From Thermoprotei archaeon (GTDB lineage: Archaea; Thermoproteota; Thermoprotei; QMSL01), in contig QMSP01000008.1 in assembly GCA_003650925.1 (NCBI GenBank), forward strand, positions 1 through 61,003: a stretch of 61,003 nucleotides of DNA, in the 5' to 3' direction. Numbering within the stretch: the stretch's first letter is position 1; each line of letters starts with the position of its first letter. Shown in pieces: positions 27,407 through 36,348 of this stretch. The position numbers were made by a program, and so were the translations under genes. The notes below the pieces were generated by a model. It did no database searches. It was not told the DNA's origin and was given only the letters and a program-made list of their open reading frames with translations.

Positions 27407-27553
27407 ATGTTAATAGCAACATGCCTCAACTATTTAGTAGAGCAGGAGTTGATTGAAGTAAGGAGGAGAAATACACCGCTAGGAGAGACCATTATGGAGA
27501 TGATGACCACTACCTTAAAAGAGGGGGGAAGGAGGAGATGCCAAAGAAGATAG
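27407..27553 (+). CDS. Small hypothetical protein, 48 aa
   Basis: ATG 27407 has a strong SD (aggaggtgg) about 9 bases upstream. The 48-residue product (LNYLVEQELIEVRRRNTPLG) looks like the wing and following helix of a winged-helix domain, but is too short to assign. Its end overlaps the start of the homing endonuclease gene by 16 bases, so the two are likely translated together. It may be a remnant of a larger DNA-binding protein. Confidence 0.45.
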   Translation: MLIATCLNYLVEQELIEVRRRNTPLGETIMEMMTTTLKEGGRRRCQRR

Positions 27554-28350
27554 TAAATGAAGAGATTCTGGAATTTATTAAAGAGCTAAGGAACAAAGGC
27601 TATGGATATAAGAGAATTCAAAGAGAAATTGAAAAGATGTACGGATGGAGCCCATCATTATCAACAATACGTTATTGGATTAGAGAGATACTTGAAGACA
27701 GGAGAGTATTCTCAGCAGAAATCCCATGGAGGCCAAGAAAACGTTCAGAGCTCGCCTACATTATAGGAGTGGCATTGGGAGACGCTTCCTTAGGACTAGC
27801 AAAAAGAACTGACAGGCCTAAAGGTAAGAGATACGTCTTCAAACTGAAAGTAAGAGATAAAGAGTTTGCAGAAGAAGTGAGGAAAGCAATTGAGAGAATT
27901 GGATTACATTGTAGTGGGGTTAAAGAATATTATGATGAGCGAGAGGAAAGAATGTACTACATAGTTCAATGTCATGTTAAAAGGTTTGTAATGTTCTTGA
28001 GGAGCTTAAAGAAATACCCAGAGAAGGTATGGAAGTGGATAGAGGGGTATGAGAGGGAATTTTTAAAGGGCTTCTATGAGTCAGAAGGGAGCTTGTTAGA
28101 GAAAGAGCAAATACTGATTTACAACTCGAGGAAGGAATTTATTGACATAGTCGCTGAGTGCTTGCAAAGACTAAGAATAAAATATAGCATCTCATATCAT
28201 GAATGTGTTAGGGAATGGATAGTGTACATACCAGTACGTGAAGTACCAAGGTTCTTAACAGCGATCAAGCCAGCAATAAAGTATTCAAGGGATGACCCAC
28301 ATTACCGAAGAGTTAAGAAGGAGAGGAAGAAAAGGATGAATGAAAACTAA
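27538..28350 (+). CDS. Free-standing LAGLIDADG homing endonuclease with N-terminal HTH
   Basis: A 270-residue protein. The N-terminal helix-turn-helix (EFIKELRNKGYGYKRIQREI, about 10-30, then STIRYWIREIL) is followed by two LAGLIDADG motifs: AYIIGVALGDASL (about 79-91) and FLKGFYESEGSL (about 178-189). Each has the acidic residue needed for metal binding. This is a monomeric two-motif endonuclease, not embedded in an intron or intein. A strong SD (gggggaaggagg) precedes ATG. The stop is 88 bases from the encoded CCA end of tRNA-Asn. The gene appears intact. Confidence 0.93.
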   Translation: MPKKIVNEEILEFIKELRNKGYGYKRIQREIEKMYGWSPSLSTIRYWIREILEDRRVFSAEIPWRPRKRSELAYIIGVALGDASLGLAKRTDRPKGKRYVFKLKVRDKEFAEEVRKAIERIGLHCSGVKEYYDEREERMYYIVQCHVKRFVMFLRSLKKYPEKVWKWIEGYEREFLKGFYESEGSLLEKEQILIYNSRKEFIDIVAECLQRLRIKYSISYHECVREWIVYIPVREVPRFLTAIKPAIKYSRDDPHYRRVKKERKKRMNEN

Positions 28351-28438: not shown

Positions 28439-28515
28439 TGGCGCCGGGGGTGGGATTTGAACCCACGACCGCCCGGTTAACAGCCGGGCGCTCTACCTGG
28501 CTAAGCTACCCCGGC
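28439..28515 (-). tRNA. tRNA-Asn (GTT), CCA encoded
   Basis: The minus strand gives acceptor GCCGGGG/CCCCGGC, anticodon stem CCGGC-type with loop CTGTTAA (anticodon GTT, plus coordinates 28479-28481), T arm GTGGGTTCAAATCCCAC, discriminator G and encoded CCA (28439-28441). There is no intron. Its 3' end faces the homing endonuclease region. Confidence 0.97.
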
Positions 28516-31191: not shown

Positions 31192-31348
31192 ATGTGCTAC
31201 CCACATAATGATGTTGCAGAGGAATCTAAAGCTATAGCTCAGCTTAAAGTGCATGGATCAGACCAGGCAACCAATAGGCCTCTTATCGTGGGTGCATGAG
31301 ATGGAATGGAGAAAATGATATAAATTAGCTGGAGATAGAGATTATGAC

Positions 31349-31476
31349 GCCCCGGCCTAGGCCGCGTGGGCGAACGGGAGCCGCTGCACCCTCAGCTCCA
31401 ACCGGTCGTCTAGCCCGGTCAAGGATGGCGGCCTCTCGAGCCGCAGACCCGGGTTCAAATCCCGGCCGGGGCACCA
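31349..31476 (+). tRNA. tRNA-Glu (CTC) with a 50-base noncanonical intron
   Basis: Acceptor 5' strand GCCCCGG (31349-31355) and 3' strand CCGGGGC (31466-31472), discriminator A, encoded CCA (31474-31476). The D arm starts at TCGTC (31406), the anticodon stem GCGGC/GCCGC encloses CTC at 31435-31437, and the T arm is GGGTTCAAATCCC. Between the 5' acceptor strand and position 8 are 50 extra bases. CCGG occurs at both borders (31352-31355 and 31402-31405), so removing exactly 50 bases in any register restores a normal 75-base tRNA. A TATA box (atataaat near 31319) precedes it. Confidence 0.88.
31356..31405 (+). other. tRNA intron (acceptor/position 7-8 region)
   Basis: One register of the 50-base intervening sequence; the flanking CCGG direct repeat makes it ambiguous by up to 4 bases. 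It contains the palindrome GGCCTAGGCC at its 5' border and the stem GGAGC/GCTCC near its 3' border. Position 7-8 introns are known in multi-intron tRNAs of Thermoproteales and similar archaea and require a splicing endonuclease with broad bulge-helix-bulge recognition. Confidence 0.65.
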
Positions 31477-31599
31477 TTATGTATCTTCTCAACTTCTCGA
31501 AGATGACCTCAACACGAGGAGCTATTGAGAAAAGTAAAAGGCCAGTGAGCGTGATCAGGGGGCTGAGAGGAATCAAAAAGGATGACTATTCTCTAATGC

Positions 31600-34044
31600 T
31601 CATCTCAAAAGGCTTCTCATGTACTCGGTTATGTCCCTCATCACTTCCTTGTGAACTCTATCCACTTCTTCACGATTCATCACTTCAGCCAGCTTTGAGA
31701 GAGGCAACAGCATCCTGTACAATATATTCATGGTCTCTTCATCTTCAAGAGAAGCCGCTTTAATGGCATCAAATGTTCTCTCATCTATTACACCTGCTCT
31801 TAGCGCTTCCTCAGTGACTCTCAACACATCCTCTCTTGTAACATGCTCAGGAAGGCCTCTTATGGCTGGAGGTCTTGGAACGGCAGATGGTGTAGGTGGT
31901 CTTCTAATAGGCGGCTTCTCCACTGGTGGTCTTGGGGCTGGCGGTGGAGTAGGTGGAGCTGCTCTTGTGGGAGGTTTGAGAGGTGGAATGGTGGGCTTGG
32001 GTATCCTCACTCTTTCAGCAATCTCTCTAATGCGCTCAGGCCTCACCTTTGGAACTCTGACCTCTGGAGGCTTGACCTCCTTGATCTTCTCCATGGATAG
32101 AACTAGCCTCCTCTTCATGCCAGCTATCCTCTCCCCAGCTCCTCTCTTGACCACAAATAGGCCTATGGATAGCGCGATGAGGGCCAACACTGTGACTACT
32201 ATGAGTGGCACGTTGTAGGTTCTCTCCCATACTGCTCTTAGCTTAAGAGGCCTGTCAACCTTCATGGTGACTCCTGTGGCCGAGATAGTCTGCCCAGTAT
32301 CCTCTACTATCCAGCCCTTGAATCTATAGCCTGTGAATGGCGTGTCGGATACGGCCTCAGACTCTATCCTTATCTTCACTGTTGCCCCAACATCATACCA
32401 ACCATCAGGCGAAGGCGGCTCCACTATGACCTTAGAGTGTTCAGACACCACTACTAGTCTGAACTGATGTCTCCATGAAGCGCTCACTGATAAGGGCTTG
32501 TCCACTTTAACTGTTATGCTCCTCTCATCACTAATCACGTCACCAGACCATCCAGTGAAGACATATCTCTCGAGATCGCTTACGTACACGGTGTCATTCC
32601 TGACCTCGAGTTTGGCTATGCTGCCTTCATCATACCACCCTTCGCCAGTGGTCACACCCTGAGCTTTACCAATGGGGTCTTTGATCTCAACATAATACTG
32701 TCTAGTGTAGAGTACTTCGATTGTTATGGGCTTGTCCGCCATGAACGTCCTCTTAGGGCTCTTGTAGCCATCGGACCATGAAGTGAATATCAGCCTTGTC
32801 CTGTTATCGAACACTACCTCCTCAGGGACTTCAACCTCAACCTCCTGATCTGGAGCAACCCACATGAGAAGAGGCAATCTCTCCTTGAGCTTCCACGCCC
32901 TGATCTCCACTGGGTATCTGCAGAGGATGTTGAACTTGTAGAATGGACCAACGTACTCAAAGGTGAGAAGCCCACTTGTCTCAACAGCCACCTTTTCTTC
33001 CTTAGAAATCACATAGCATATATCACCCAGCTTCACGTCAGCTGGGACCTCAACAGTGTACTTTCGCCCTCCAGGAAGCTTGAAGGAAGCTATTTCACCA
33101 GCTCTAATCTCCTTCTCAGCTACTTTACTACCTTCGAATTCGATCACGATCGTTATCTTGGCCTCAGGAGGCAAGCCCTTGGTCGTGACATTGACGACTA
33201 TGTAGCCTATCACCTTGAACATAGAGACATCTTTAGCATCAATGCCCTCCCATGACACGAAGTGCTCCTGGATAGTGGTGGGCTCAGGAGATGCTGAGTA
33301 GACGCCACTCTTGCAGTATACTCTAAACGCTGACAGAACTCTATCCTCTCTTCCAGCCATTGGATTCTTAAACGAGAACACTGCCTTCTCTGGAGAGCAT
33401 AGAGGGGACTTCCTCAAGTCAACCATCACTCTGGTGTAGAAGCCTTCATGATAATAGCCCTTCTCGAGTATGCTTAGACTATGCTCAGACACCTCTACTA
33501 TGCTGCTTATGAGCTCCACCTGCTCCTTATGAAGCGCATCAGCATGATCCTTGTAACAGACCTCATAGAATATGTTCCACGTGGTGCGCAATGGGATGTA
33601 GACAACATCAAATCGCGCTGTTCCATCCATGGATATCCTCACTGAGACCTCCACCGCGAAGAGAAAGTGGACGTAGAAGCGAGTGGTGTCCTCAGCAGTC
33701 TCTCCATCAGCCTCAGCATATATATGAACTACTCTCCATCCAGGAGGATAGCCAGCGTAGCCTTGTACATAGTAGATCTGGCCACCCTTTGCTGTCCCCT
33801 CAGCAAGAACAAGAACCTCTCCAGTGGGTCTTCTCAAGGTGAGCCTGACGTAAGCATCCTTGTTGACTCTGAAGTATATCCTCACGAGCTCTCCAACAGC
33901 ATACTTGTCCTTACTGGTCCACACCTCAACCGTGAGAGGAGCTTGAGCACGGACAGGTACTACATCGGCTAGTGCTACTGCTAAAAGCAGTGCGAGCATG
34001 ACCATGAGAATCCGCTGCTCGCTCCTCAATCTCAACATCCTCAC
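31600..34044 (-). CDS. Large surface protein with beta-repeat domains, one TM and proline-rich tail
   Basis: An 814-residue protein. The signal peptide (about 8-33) is followed by a DUF4384-like domain (VEVWTSKDKYAVGELVRIYF, about 38-120), a central beta region, three GW-type repeats resembling divergent InlB B-repeats (hallmarks TSWSDG, FTGWSGD, FKGWIVE, about 400-600), a transmembrane helix (about 612-635), a long proline-rich linker (about 665-745) and a helical cytoplasmic domain. The layout suggests an extracellular adhesion/S-layer-linked receptor with a cytosolic signalling or scaffold end. It is cotranscribed with the 400-residue gene upstream (3-base gap). Confidence 0.8.
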   Translation of the reverse strand: MRMLRLRSEQRILMVMLALLLAVALADVVPVRAQAPLTVEVWTSKDKYAVGELVRIYFRVNKDAYVRLTLRRPTGEVLVLAEGTAKGGQIYYVQGYAGYPPGWRVVHIYAEADGETAEDTTRFYVHFLFAVEVSVRISMDGTARFDVVYIPLRTTWNIFYEVCYKDHADALHKEQVELISSIVEVSEHSLSILEKGYYHEGFYTRVMVDLRKSPLCSPEKAVFSFKNPMAGREDRVLSAFRVYCKSGVYSASPEPTTIQEHFVSWEGIDAKDVSMFKVIGYIVVNVTTKGLPPEAKITIVIEFEGSKVAEKEIRAGEIASFKLPGGRKYTVEVPADVKLGDICYVISKEEKVAVETSGLLTFEYVGPFYKFNILCRYPVEIRAWKLKERLPLLMWVAPDQEVEVEVPEEVVFDNRTRLIFTSWSDGYKSPKRTFMADKPITIEVLYTRQYYVEIKDPIGKAQGVTTGEGWYDEGSIAKLEVRNDTVYVSDLERYVFTGWSGDVISDERSITVKVDKPLSVSASWRHQFRLVVVSEHSKVIVEPPSPDGWYDVGATVKIRIESEAVSDTPFTGYRFKGWIVEDTGQTISATGVTMKVDRPLKLRAVWERTYNVPLIVVTVLALIALSIGLFVVKRGAGERIAGMKRRLVLSMEKIKEVKPPEVRVPKVRPERIREIAERVRIPKPTIPPLKPPTRAAPPTPPPAPRPPVEKPPIRRPPTPSAVPRPPAIRGLPEHVTREDVLRVTEEALRAGVIDERTFDAIKAASLEDEETMNILYRMLLPLSKLAEVMNREEVDRVHKEVMRDITEYMRSLLR

Positions 34045-35495: not shown

Positions 35496-35570
35496 AGCGG
35501 GGTGGGGAAGCCAGGTTATCCCGCGGGGCTCATAACCCCGAGGTCGGTGGTTCAAATCCACCCCCCGCTA
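35496..35570 (+). tRNA. Initiator tRNA-Met (CAT)
   Basis: Acceptor AGCGGGG/CCCCGCT with the A1-U72 end pair typical of archaeal initiator tRNA. The anticodon stem CGGGG/CCCCG supplies the three G-C pairs of initiators, and CAT is at 35531-35533. The T arm is GTGGTTCAAATCCAC and the discriminator is A. CCA is not encoded. No intron. A homing endonuclease pseudogene lies 88 bases downstream. Confidence 0.96.
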
Positions 35571-35658: not shown

Positions 35659-36348
35659 GTGGCGAGTAATGATGCCGAGTTTACATTTGAGTTTGAAAGA
35701 GACCCTAGGGCTTGGTATCTTCTTGGATTTGCACTAGGTGATGGATTCCTAGATGTATGGAGGATAGAAGGGACTACTATATGGAGAGCTTTAGAGTTCG
35801 ATATTACAAATGAGAGAATAGCAAAATACCTTTGCTCCATAGGCAGAGACATCATAAAAGCAGACCACGTAGTGGTGAAGGTAAAGCCTCCTGTCAGAGG
35901 TAGGCGTAGTAAACCAGGCAAGAAGTCTGTCTATAGGGTGTTTATAGTGAGTGATGAGGTTAGTGACTGGTTTCTCAAGTATAGGAATGACTATGAAATG
36001 CTAAAGAGAGTTCTTATTAAGAGACCTAAGCACGCTAAGGAGTATATTCGTGGCTTCTTTGATGCTGAGGGCTACTTCAGGGAGTGGATGTATAAGCGTG
36101 TGCGTAAGGGGAGAGTGGTTGTGGAGAGGAGGGCTAGGATAAAGATTGTTAATAATGATAAAAAGCTGCTTGAGGTTGTTTAGGAGCTTCTCAAGAGGTG
36201 CTTTGATTTCAGGAGTTTTCACCTTGAAGGGCCTTATCATGATGCTTATCGCAGGAGTCCTAAGTATGAGCTTTGTACATATTCCATCTATGAGTGTAGG
36301 CGTTTTCTTGAGTTCTTCAGGCCACTTAAGTATTGCGAATTGCCTTGA
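35659..36348 (+). pseudogene. LAGLIDADG homing endonuclease interrupted by an in-frame TAG
   Basis: GTG 35659 follows an SD (aaggggg). The frame encodes both LAGLIDADG motifs: WYLLGFALGDGFL (about 15-27) and EYIRGFFDAEGYF (about 127-139). It stops at TAG 36181-36183 after 174 residues. The same frame then continues for another 54 codons of protein-like sequence (ELLKRCFDFRSFHLEGPYHD ... FFRPLKYCELP) to TGA 36346-36348, where the second half-domain would be expected. TAG is an ordinary stop in many local genes, so a nonsense mutation is the likely reading. It would lack most of its second DNA-binding half. Confidence 0.8.

Follow-up and report, generated by a model that had tools for sequence, protein, structure and literature searches.

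The tRNA-Glu(CTC) Locus

The window, i.e., the whole 61,003-nucleotide stretch of DNA from a Thermoprotei archaeon that was analyzed, contains a tRNA-Glu(CTC) locus in which the heptamer GCCCCGG (31349–31355; termed element U) is followed by 50 bases and then by TCGTCTAG..., which continues to the 3' acceptor strand (Table 1). A preliminary description of the sequence had taken the heptamer as the 5' exon and the 50 extra bases as the intron. The extra bases are indeed there, and the register is indeed irrelevant to the product: CCGG is present at both insert borders, and five registers of 50-base removal lead to the identical 75-nt tRNA. In the genomic sequence, ARAGORN detected tRNA-Glu(CTC) at 31400–31472 without a proper acceptor 5' strand, and Rfam matched a tRNA at 31402–31469 (model positions 4–67, 41.3 bits), again with the acceptor 5' strand missing. 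The spliced sequence was recognized by ARAGORN as tRNA-Glu(CTC) with a complete 7-bp acceptor stem and a full fold. Cloverleaf, promoter and encoded CCA are all intact. Since no second Glu-CTC gene was detected in the 98.6%-complete genome, the gene is probably no pseudogene and, judged by its sequence, appears functional and essential.

Three other readings of the locus were rejected. A 139-aa plus-strand ORF across the tRNA (31344–31763) was dismissed as mechanical. The core of a group I or group II self-splicing intron needs about 100 nt or more, which neither the 50-nt insert nor the 19-nt intron described below provides, and an Rfam scan at the locus returned nothing besides the tRNA. A split or permuted tRNA was ruled out, all parts being contiguous and in order.

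Elsewhere in the window, an ORF of 270 aa (27538–28350, plus strand; LAGLIDADG_3, 8e-11) lies about 90 bases from tRNA-Asn (28439–28515, minus strand) and may encode a homing endonuclease. A second ORF of 174 aa (35659–36183, plus strand), with a weak LAGLIDADG_3 match (1e-4), lies about 90 bases downstream of tRNA-Met (35496–35570).

Table 1. Features of the tRNA-Glu(CTC) locus, with splice elements as predicted from the motif.
Feature	Position	Strand	Remarks
TATA box TATAAATT	31319–31326	+	22 nt before element U; spacing compared in relatives
Element U, GCCCCGG	31349–31355	+	copy of the acceptor 5' strand, 7 nt, at the expected transcription start
h, 5' strand, GGCGAACG	31369–31376	+	in leader; pairs with exon 2 (31403–31410), 7/8 pairs, one A.G mismatch
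H, 5' strand, GGAG	31377–31380	+	includes tRNA G1; 4/4 pairs with CTCC (31396–31399)
Exon 1, GCC	31380–31382	+	tRNA positions 1–3; GCC in 40/40 genes
Predicted intron, GCTGCACCCTCAGCTCCAA	31383–31401	+	19 nt, position 3/4; BHB motif
h', CTG with CAG	31384–31386 with 31393–31395	+	inside intron
H, 3' strand, CTCC	31396–31399	+	intron end
Exon 2	31402–31473	+	tRNA-Glu(CTC) positions 4–73; ARAGORN, Rfam, fold of spliced sequence
3' acceptor strand, CCGGGGC	31466–31472	+	within exon 2
Discriminator A	31473	+	
Encoded CCA end	31474–31476	+	sequence

A Predicted 19-nt Intron between Positions 3 and 4

Canonical bulge-helix-bulge (BHB) geometry was applied to the locus, i.e., an exon helix h, a 4-bp helix H, 3-nt bulges in which the cut follows the second base, and an intron helix h'. 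With a slash marking each predicted cut, strand 1 reads GGCGAACG-GGAG-CC/G-CTG and strand 2 reads CAG-CTCC-AA/C-CGGTCGTC. The two strands form a strict hBHBh' motif, with 4/4 pairs in H, 3/3 in h', 7/8 in h and two 3-nt bulges, the first of which begins with C2 and C3 of exon 1. The predicted cuts join GCC to CCGG, i.e., tRNA positions 3 and 4, and removal of 19 nt by this inner route gives the same mature tRNA as removal of 50 bases. When the insert was shuffled, a motif that also yielded the right acceptor arose in 278 of 200,000 trials. The gene very probably carries a 19-nt BHB intron at position 3/4, and the complete splice anatomy, in which U forms part of the leader, is likely.

The earlier expectation that a functional-looking tRNA-Glu(CTC) is interrupted near its 5' end is thus upheld by the BHB motif and by the covariation described below. 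Exact removal of 50 bases had predicted the right mature sequence from splice sites other than those indicated by the motif: the BHB gives 19 nt at 3/4 instead of 50 nt at 7/8, where no BHB can form at the proposed 5' boundary, and GCCCCGG is more plausibly a duplicated acceptor strand lying in the leader than the first exon. It was this conserved duplicate that caused the intron to be misplaced. The relaxed endonuclease specificity that had been thought necessary is not required, because the hBHBh' found here is strict and both of its bulges measure 3 nt.

Conservation of the Splice Motif in Relatives

In a DNA search with the locus, the 3' half of the insert (GGGAGCC...GCTCCAA/CCGG) proved to be conserved together with the tRNA in the same order and in the Thermoproteaceae. 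A pattern search over 81 genomes of the class, in which U was not required and from which one chance hit in a coding region was left out, returned 40 genes, distributed over 18 genomes from this order and the Thermoproteaceae. Since the anatomy is common to these genes, the locus is not a product of chance. The isotypes concerned were Glu-CTC, Glu-TTC and Asp-GTC, and intron length ranged from 17 to 31 nt. Complete 4/4 pairing of H, the inner GCC and the CCGG were each found in 40/40 genes. H was formed by eight pair combinations, including GGAG/CTCC, GGGG/CCCC, CGCG/CGCG and AGCG/CGCT, and the inner GCC was invariant although the surrounding H varied. Among 15 distinct H/h' sequence sets, H was 100% paired as compared to 78% after shuffling, and h' was 98% paired as compared to 66%; for either helix, 0 of 2000 shuffles scored as high. 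By this comparison of sequences, the predicted splice helices covary across genes.

In the window's genome, tRNA-Glu(TTC) (contig C4, 23000–23450, L063) and tRNA-Asp(GTC) (contig C11, 46900–47250, L136) also carry U and a 3/4 BHB intron. Its tRNA-Thr genes have the acceptor GCCCCGG too, yet their 5' end is uninterrupted. The trait is mosaic, since one Glu-TTC gene of the same order (genome G001, L065) is uninterrupted. To see whether U follows the acceptor when the latter differs, tRNAs with acceptors other than GCCCCGG were searched for 3/4 introns; no convincing case emerged from 2.0 Mb of a Thermoproteaceae genome of 2,009,313 bp, nor from other tRNA loci. Phylum-wide matches outside this order and the Thermoproteaceae were few; the sole one inspected in detail (G008) contained no tRNA gene, and neither did one Thermoproteaceae match (G080).

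Element U Is Conserved Upstream of the Intron

Although U had not been part of the search pattern, it was present in 40/40 genes, 17–34 nt upstream of the inner G1. It was exact in 33/40 and differed by one change in the other seven (C3T once, C5T four times, G7C twice). Its information content was 1.5–2.0 bits at positions 1–7, then 0.76 at position 8 and 0.69 at position 16 (the start of the H strand), and below 0.5 elsewhere; leaders diverge between genes while U does not. As a control, the 80 nt upstream of 106 other tRNA genes were compared with the acceptor 5' strand of each, and three of these genes had an exact copy there. Covariation between U and the acceptor cannot be demonstrated, since GCCCCGG is the acceptor in every one of the 40 genes.

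The distance from the TATA box to U in relatives was mostly 18–24 nt, with a mode of 19–20 nt, a simple box finder having given shorter values in six genes. In intact Glu and Asp orthologs of the 2,009,313-bp Thermoproteaceae genome, the TATA box lies about 20–21 nt from the tRNA's own G1. Since the two distances resemble each other, U appears to occupy the original 5' end of the tRNA. Within the window's own genome, the TATA spacing at other tRNAs is looser, often about 28–42 nt, and short leaders are therefore normal there.

Folding of Unspliced and Spliced RNAs

In partition-function folding of the unspliced RNA, U paired with the acceptor 3' strand with a mean probability of 0.95. Constrained folding at 37 °C favored pairing of U over pairing of the exon by 10.2 ± 2.4 kcal/mol before splicing (40/40 genes) and by 2.3 ± 2.1 kcal/mol after splicing, a shift of 7.9 kcal/mol that lends plausibility and not proof, because it is expected from the seven versus four pairs available. 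At 75 °C, the advantage of U fell from 7.2 kcal/mol in the unspliced to 1.9 kcal/mol in the spliced RNA. In the nearest-neighbor model, the exon was favored over U in the spliced RNA of 5/40 genes at 37 °C and 1/40 at 75 °C. The model still slightly favors U after splicing, and exchange of the strands would therefore need tRNA tertiary structure or RNase P.

A role of U in promoting BHB formation found no support: substitution of random 7-mers for U hardly altered the predicted probability of H (0.19 vs. 0.18 at 37 °C and 0.25 vs. 0.22 at 75 °C).

Splicing Endonuclease and RNase P

Two PF01974 proteins are encoded in the genome. The first, an EndA alpha subunit of 188 aa, matches the Aeropyrum chain 3p1z_B (3.7e-53) and the Pyrobaculum chain 2zyz_B (2.9e-44); its H and K residues are conserved, and an extra loop aligns to the Aeropyrum chain. 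This loop region of EndA alpha has been reported to confer broad specificity. The second, of 186 aa, is beta-like and without the His. On inspection of these subunits, the splicing endonuclease of the lineage is, by sequence, of the (alpha-beta)2 type.

An RNase P RNA was found in the window's genome with RF00373 (201 bits), and the RNaseP-T family was found in 5/5 Thermoproteaceae genomes tested; the four of these that were searched with RF00373 gave no match to it. Since an RNase P RNA was found in each group, the leader could be removed in both. One Thermoproteaceae genome (G049, contig C1) has, besides its full RNaseP-T match (1981486–1981693), a second match above the cut-off (567368–567547; 84.8 bits).

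Discussion

Proposed pathway. Transcription would start at or near U. In the precursor, the canonical hBHBh' would arise from pairing of the leader strand (h and H) with exon 2 and with the end of the intron. Before splicing, the acceptor 5' strand would be split by the 3/4 intron, with positions 4–7 tied up in the BHB, and U, a 7-nt copy of this strand, may act as a surrogate by pairing with the acceptor 3' strand until splicing, as conservation and folding suggest. From the motif and its covariation, the endonuclease is predicted to cut at CC/G and AA/C, and ligation would join GCC to CCGG. Splicing would thereby rebuild the true 5' strand, able to displace U, and RNase P may remove the leader together with U. 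On the strength of conservation and modeled folding, the chances that U serves as a surrogate acceptor strand before splicing are put at about even. The full order of events, in which U holds the 3' strand, splicing triggers the exchange, RNase P then removes U, and splicing precedes 5' maturation, is proposed tentatively and rated somewhat below even.

Alternatives. The 3/4 BHB intron may be real while U has no surrogate role, being instead a transcription initiation element, the partner of a leader hairpin or a relic of the former 5' end. U does lie at the expected transcription start, and the leader of most Thermoproteaceae genes contains a CGGGG with which it could pair. In one gene (L143, genome G010), U reads GCCCTGG and the leader GGAGGGG, i.e., a compensating U5/A pair, which suggests an extra leader hairpin in some Thermoproteaceae. 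A relic would decay, however, whereas U retains its high information content next to much less conserved flanks, and this conservation drops at the length of the acceptor. Of the changes in U, moreover, all except two leave a pair or a wobble to CCGGGGC intact. Pairing with the leader cannot by itself explain U, because five genes of this order (L016, L084, L088, L096, L136) keep it in front of a leader that has no complementary GGGG; conservation of U solely for this purpose was rejected on the same ground. A non-surrogate U is thus considered unlikely, with roughly one chance in four left to it in our judgment.

A second alternative takes U itself as exon 1, with a single intron of about 46–50 nt (register 3/4 to 7/8) being removed. 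It would account for the position of U, whose distance from the TATA box is like that of the first base in intact orthologs, for the conservation of all seven acceptor positions in U and for its predicted pairing with the acceptor before as well as after splicing. By motif reasoning, however, no BHB is possible within or just after U, since the 4-nt H strand needed for it would either precede the transcript start or be left unpaired; a 50-nt intron was rejected in any register, as the 5' boundary lacks a BHB in each. Any cut within U would have to be made in the stem that U forms with the acceptor, and were U exon throughout, the variants GCCCCGC (two genes) and GCCCTGG (four genes) would lead to mismatched or wobble pairs in the acceptor. 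The inner GCC and CCGG, unlike U, are invariant. This alternative is regarded as improbable. A pseudogene or unspliced dead copy, which would fit the lack of an uninterrupted acceptor strand in the linear gene, is hardly credible for the sole Glu-CTC gene detected, with intact cloverleaf, promoter and CCA and an anatomy kept in 18 genomes.

Relation to known systems. The 3/4 intron class itself is already known, as such introns have been reported for certain Thermoproteales tRNAs (PMC4090602, citing Sugahara et al. 2008). The intron predicted here resembles these in its position and near-5' BHB, and homologous 3/4 intron sequences were found in Pyrobaculum and Thermoproteus genomes, which are listed in the same class as the window's genome and in a different order. 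As far as the reports can be compared via the literature citing them, it differs in the conserved acceptor-strand copy upstream. In that literature, the primary papers of 2008 and 2010 lying outside the coverage, no description of U or of an acceptor copy was found; U seems undescribed, and its novelty is provisional. Similar introns across Glu-CTC, Glu-TTC and Asp-GTC recall the transposable tRNA introns of Thermoproteales (Fujishima et al. 2010, as cited in PMC4033280 and PMC4090602); in contrast to those, so far as these citing papers describe them, the shared unit here includes the leader, the GCC of exon 1 and U, and leaders diverge while U does not. With canonical 37/38 archaeal introns, the predicted intron shares BHB geometry and enzyme; it differs in its position and in a BHB that depends on the 5' leader. 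Anticodon-loop introns were predicted in several tRNAs of the window's genome. As in the split tRNAs of Nanoarchaeum and Caldivirga (PMC3218864, PMC4390854), the BHB involves a leader strand, but here the gene is contiguous and its parts would be spliced in cis. tRNAscan-SE 2.0 extends candidates by 60 nt in order to catch end-proximal introns (PMC8450103). For annotation, the analysis implies a correction, as a naive reading of such genes gives a 50-nt intron at 7/8.

Acceptor-stem introns pose a puzzle, since they deprive the pre-tRNA of the stem by which it is recognized in 3' processing and by RNase P. The BHB, moreover, requires a 5' leader, yet G1, or a base near it, seems to be the start of intact Glu and Asp genes in the lineage. 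If true, a conserved surrogate strand would be a simple solution to the split acceptor stem. It would also provide defined leader-bearing substrates for the minimal RNase P of Thermoproteaceae, and the order of splicing and end processing would become testable.
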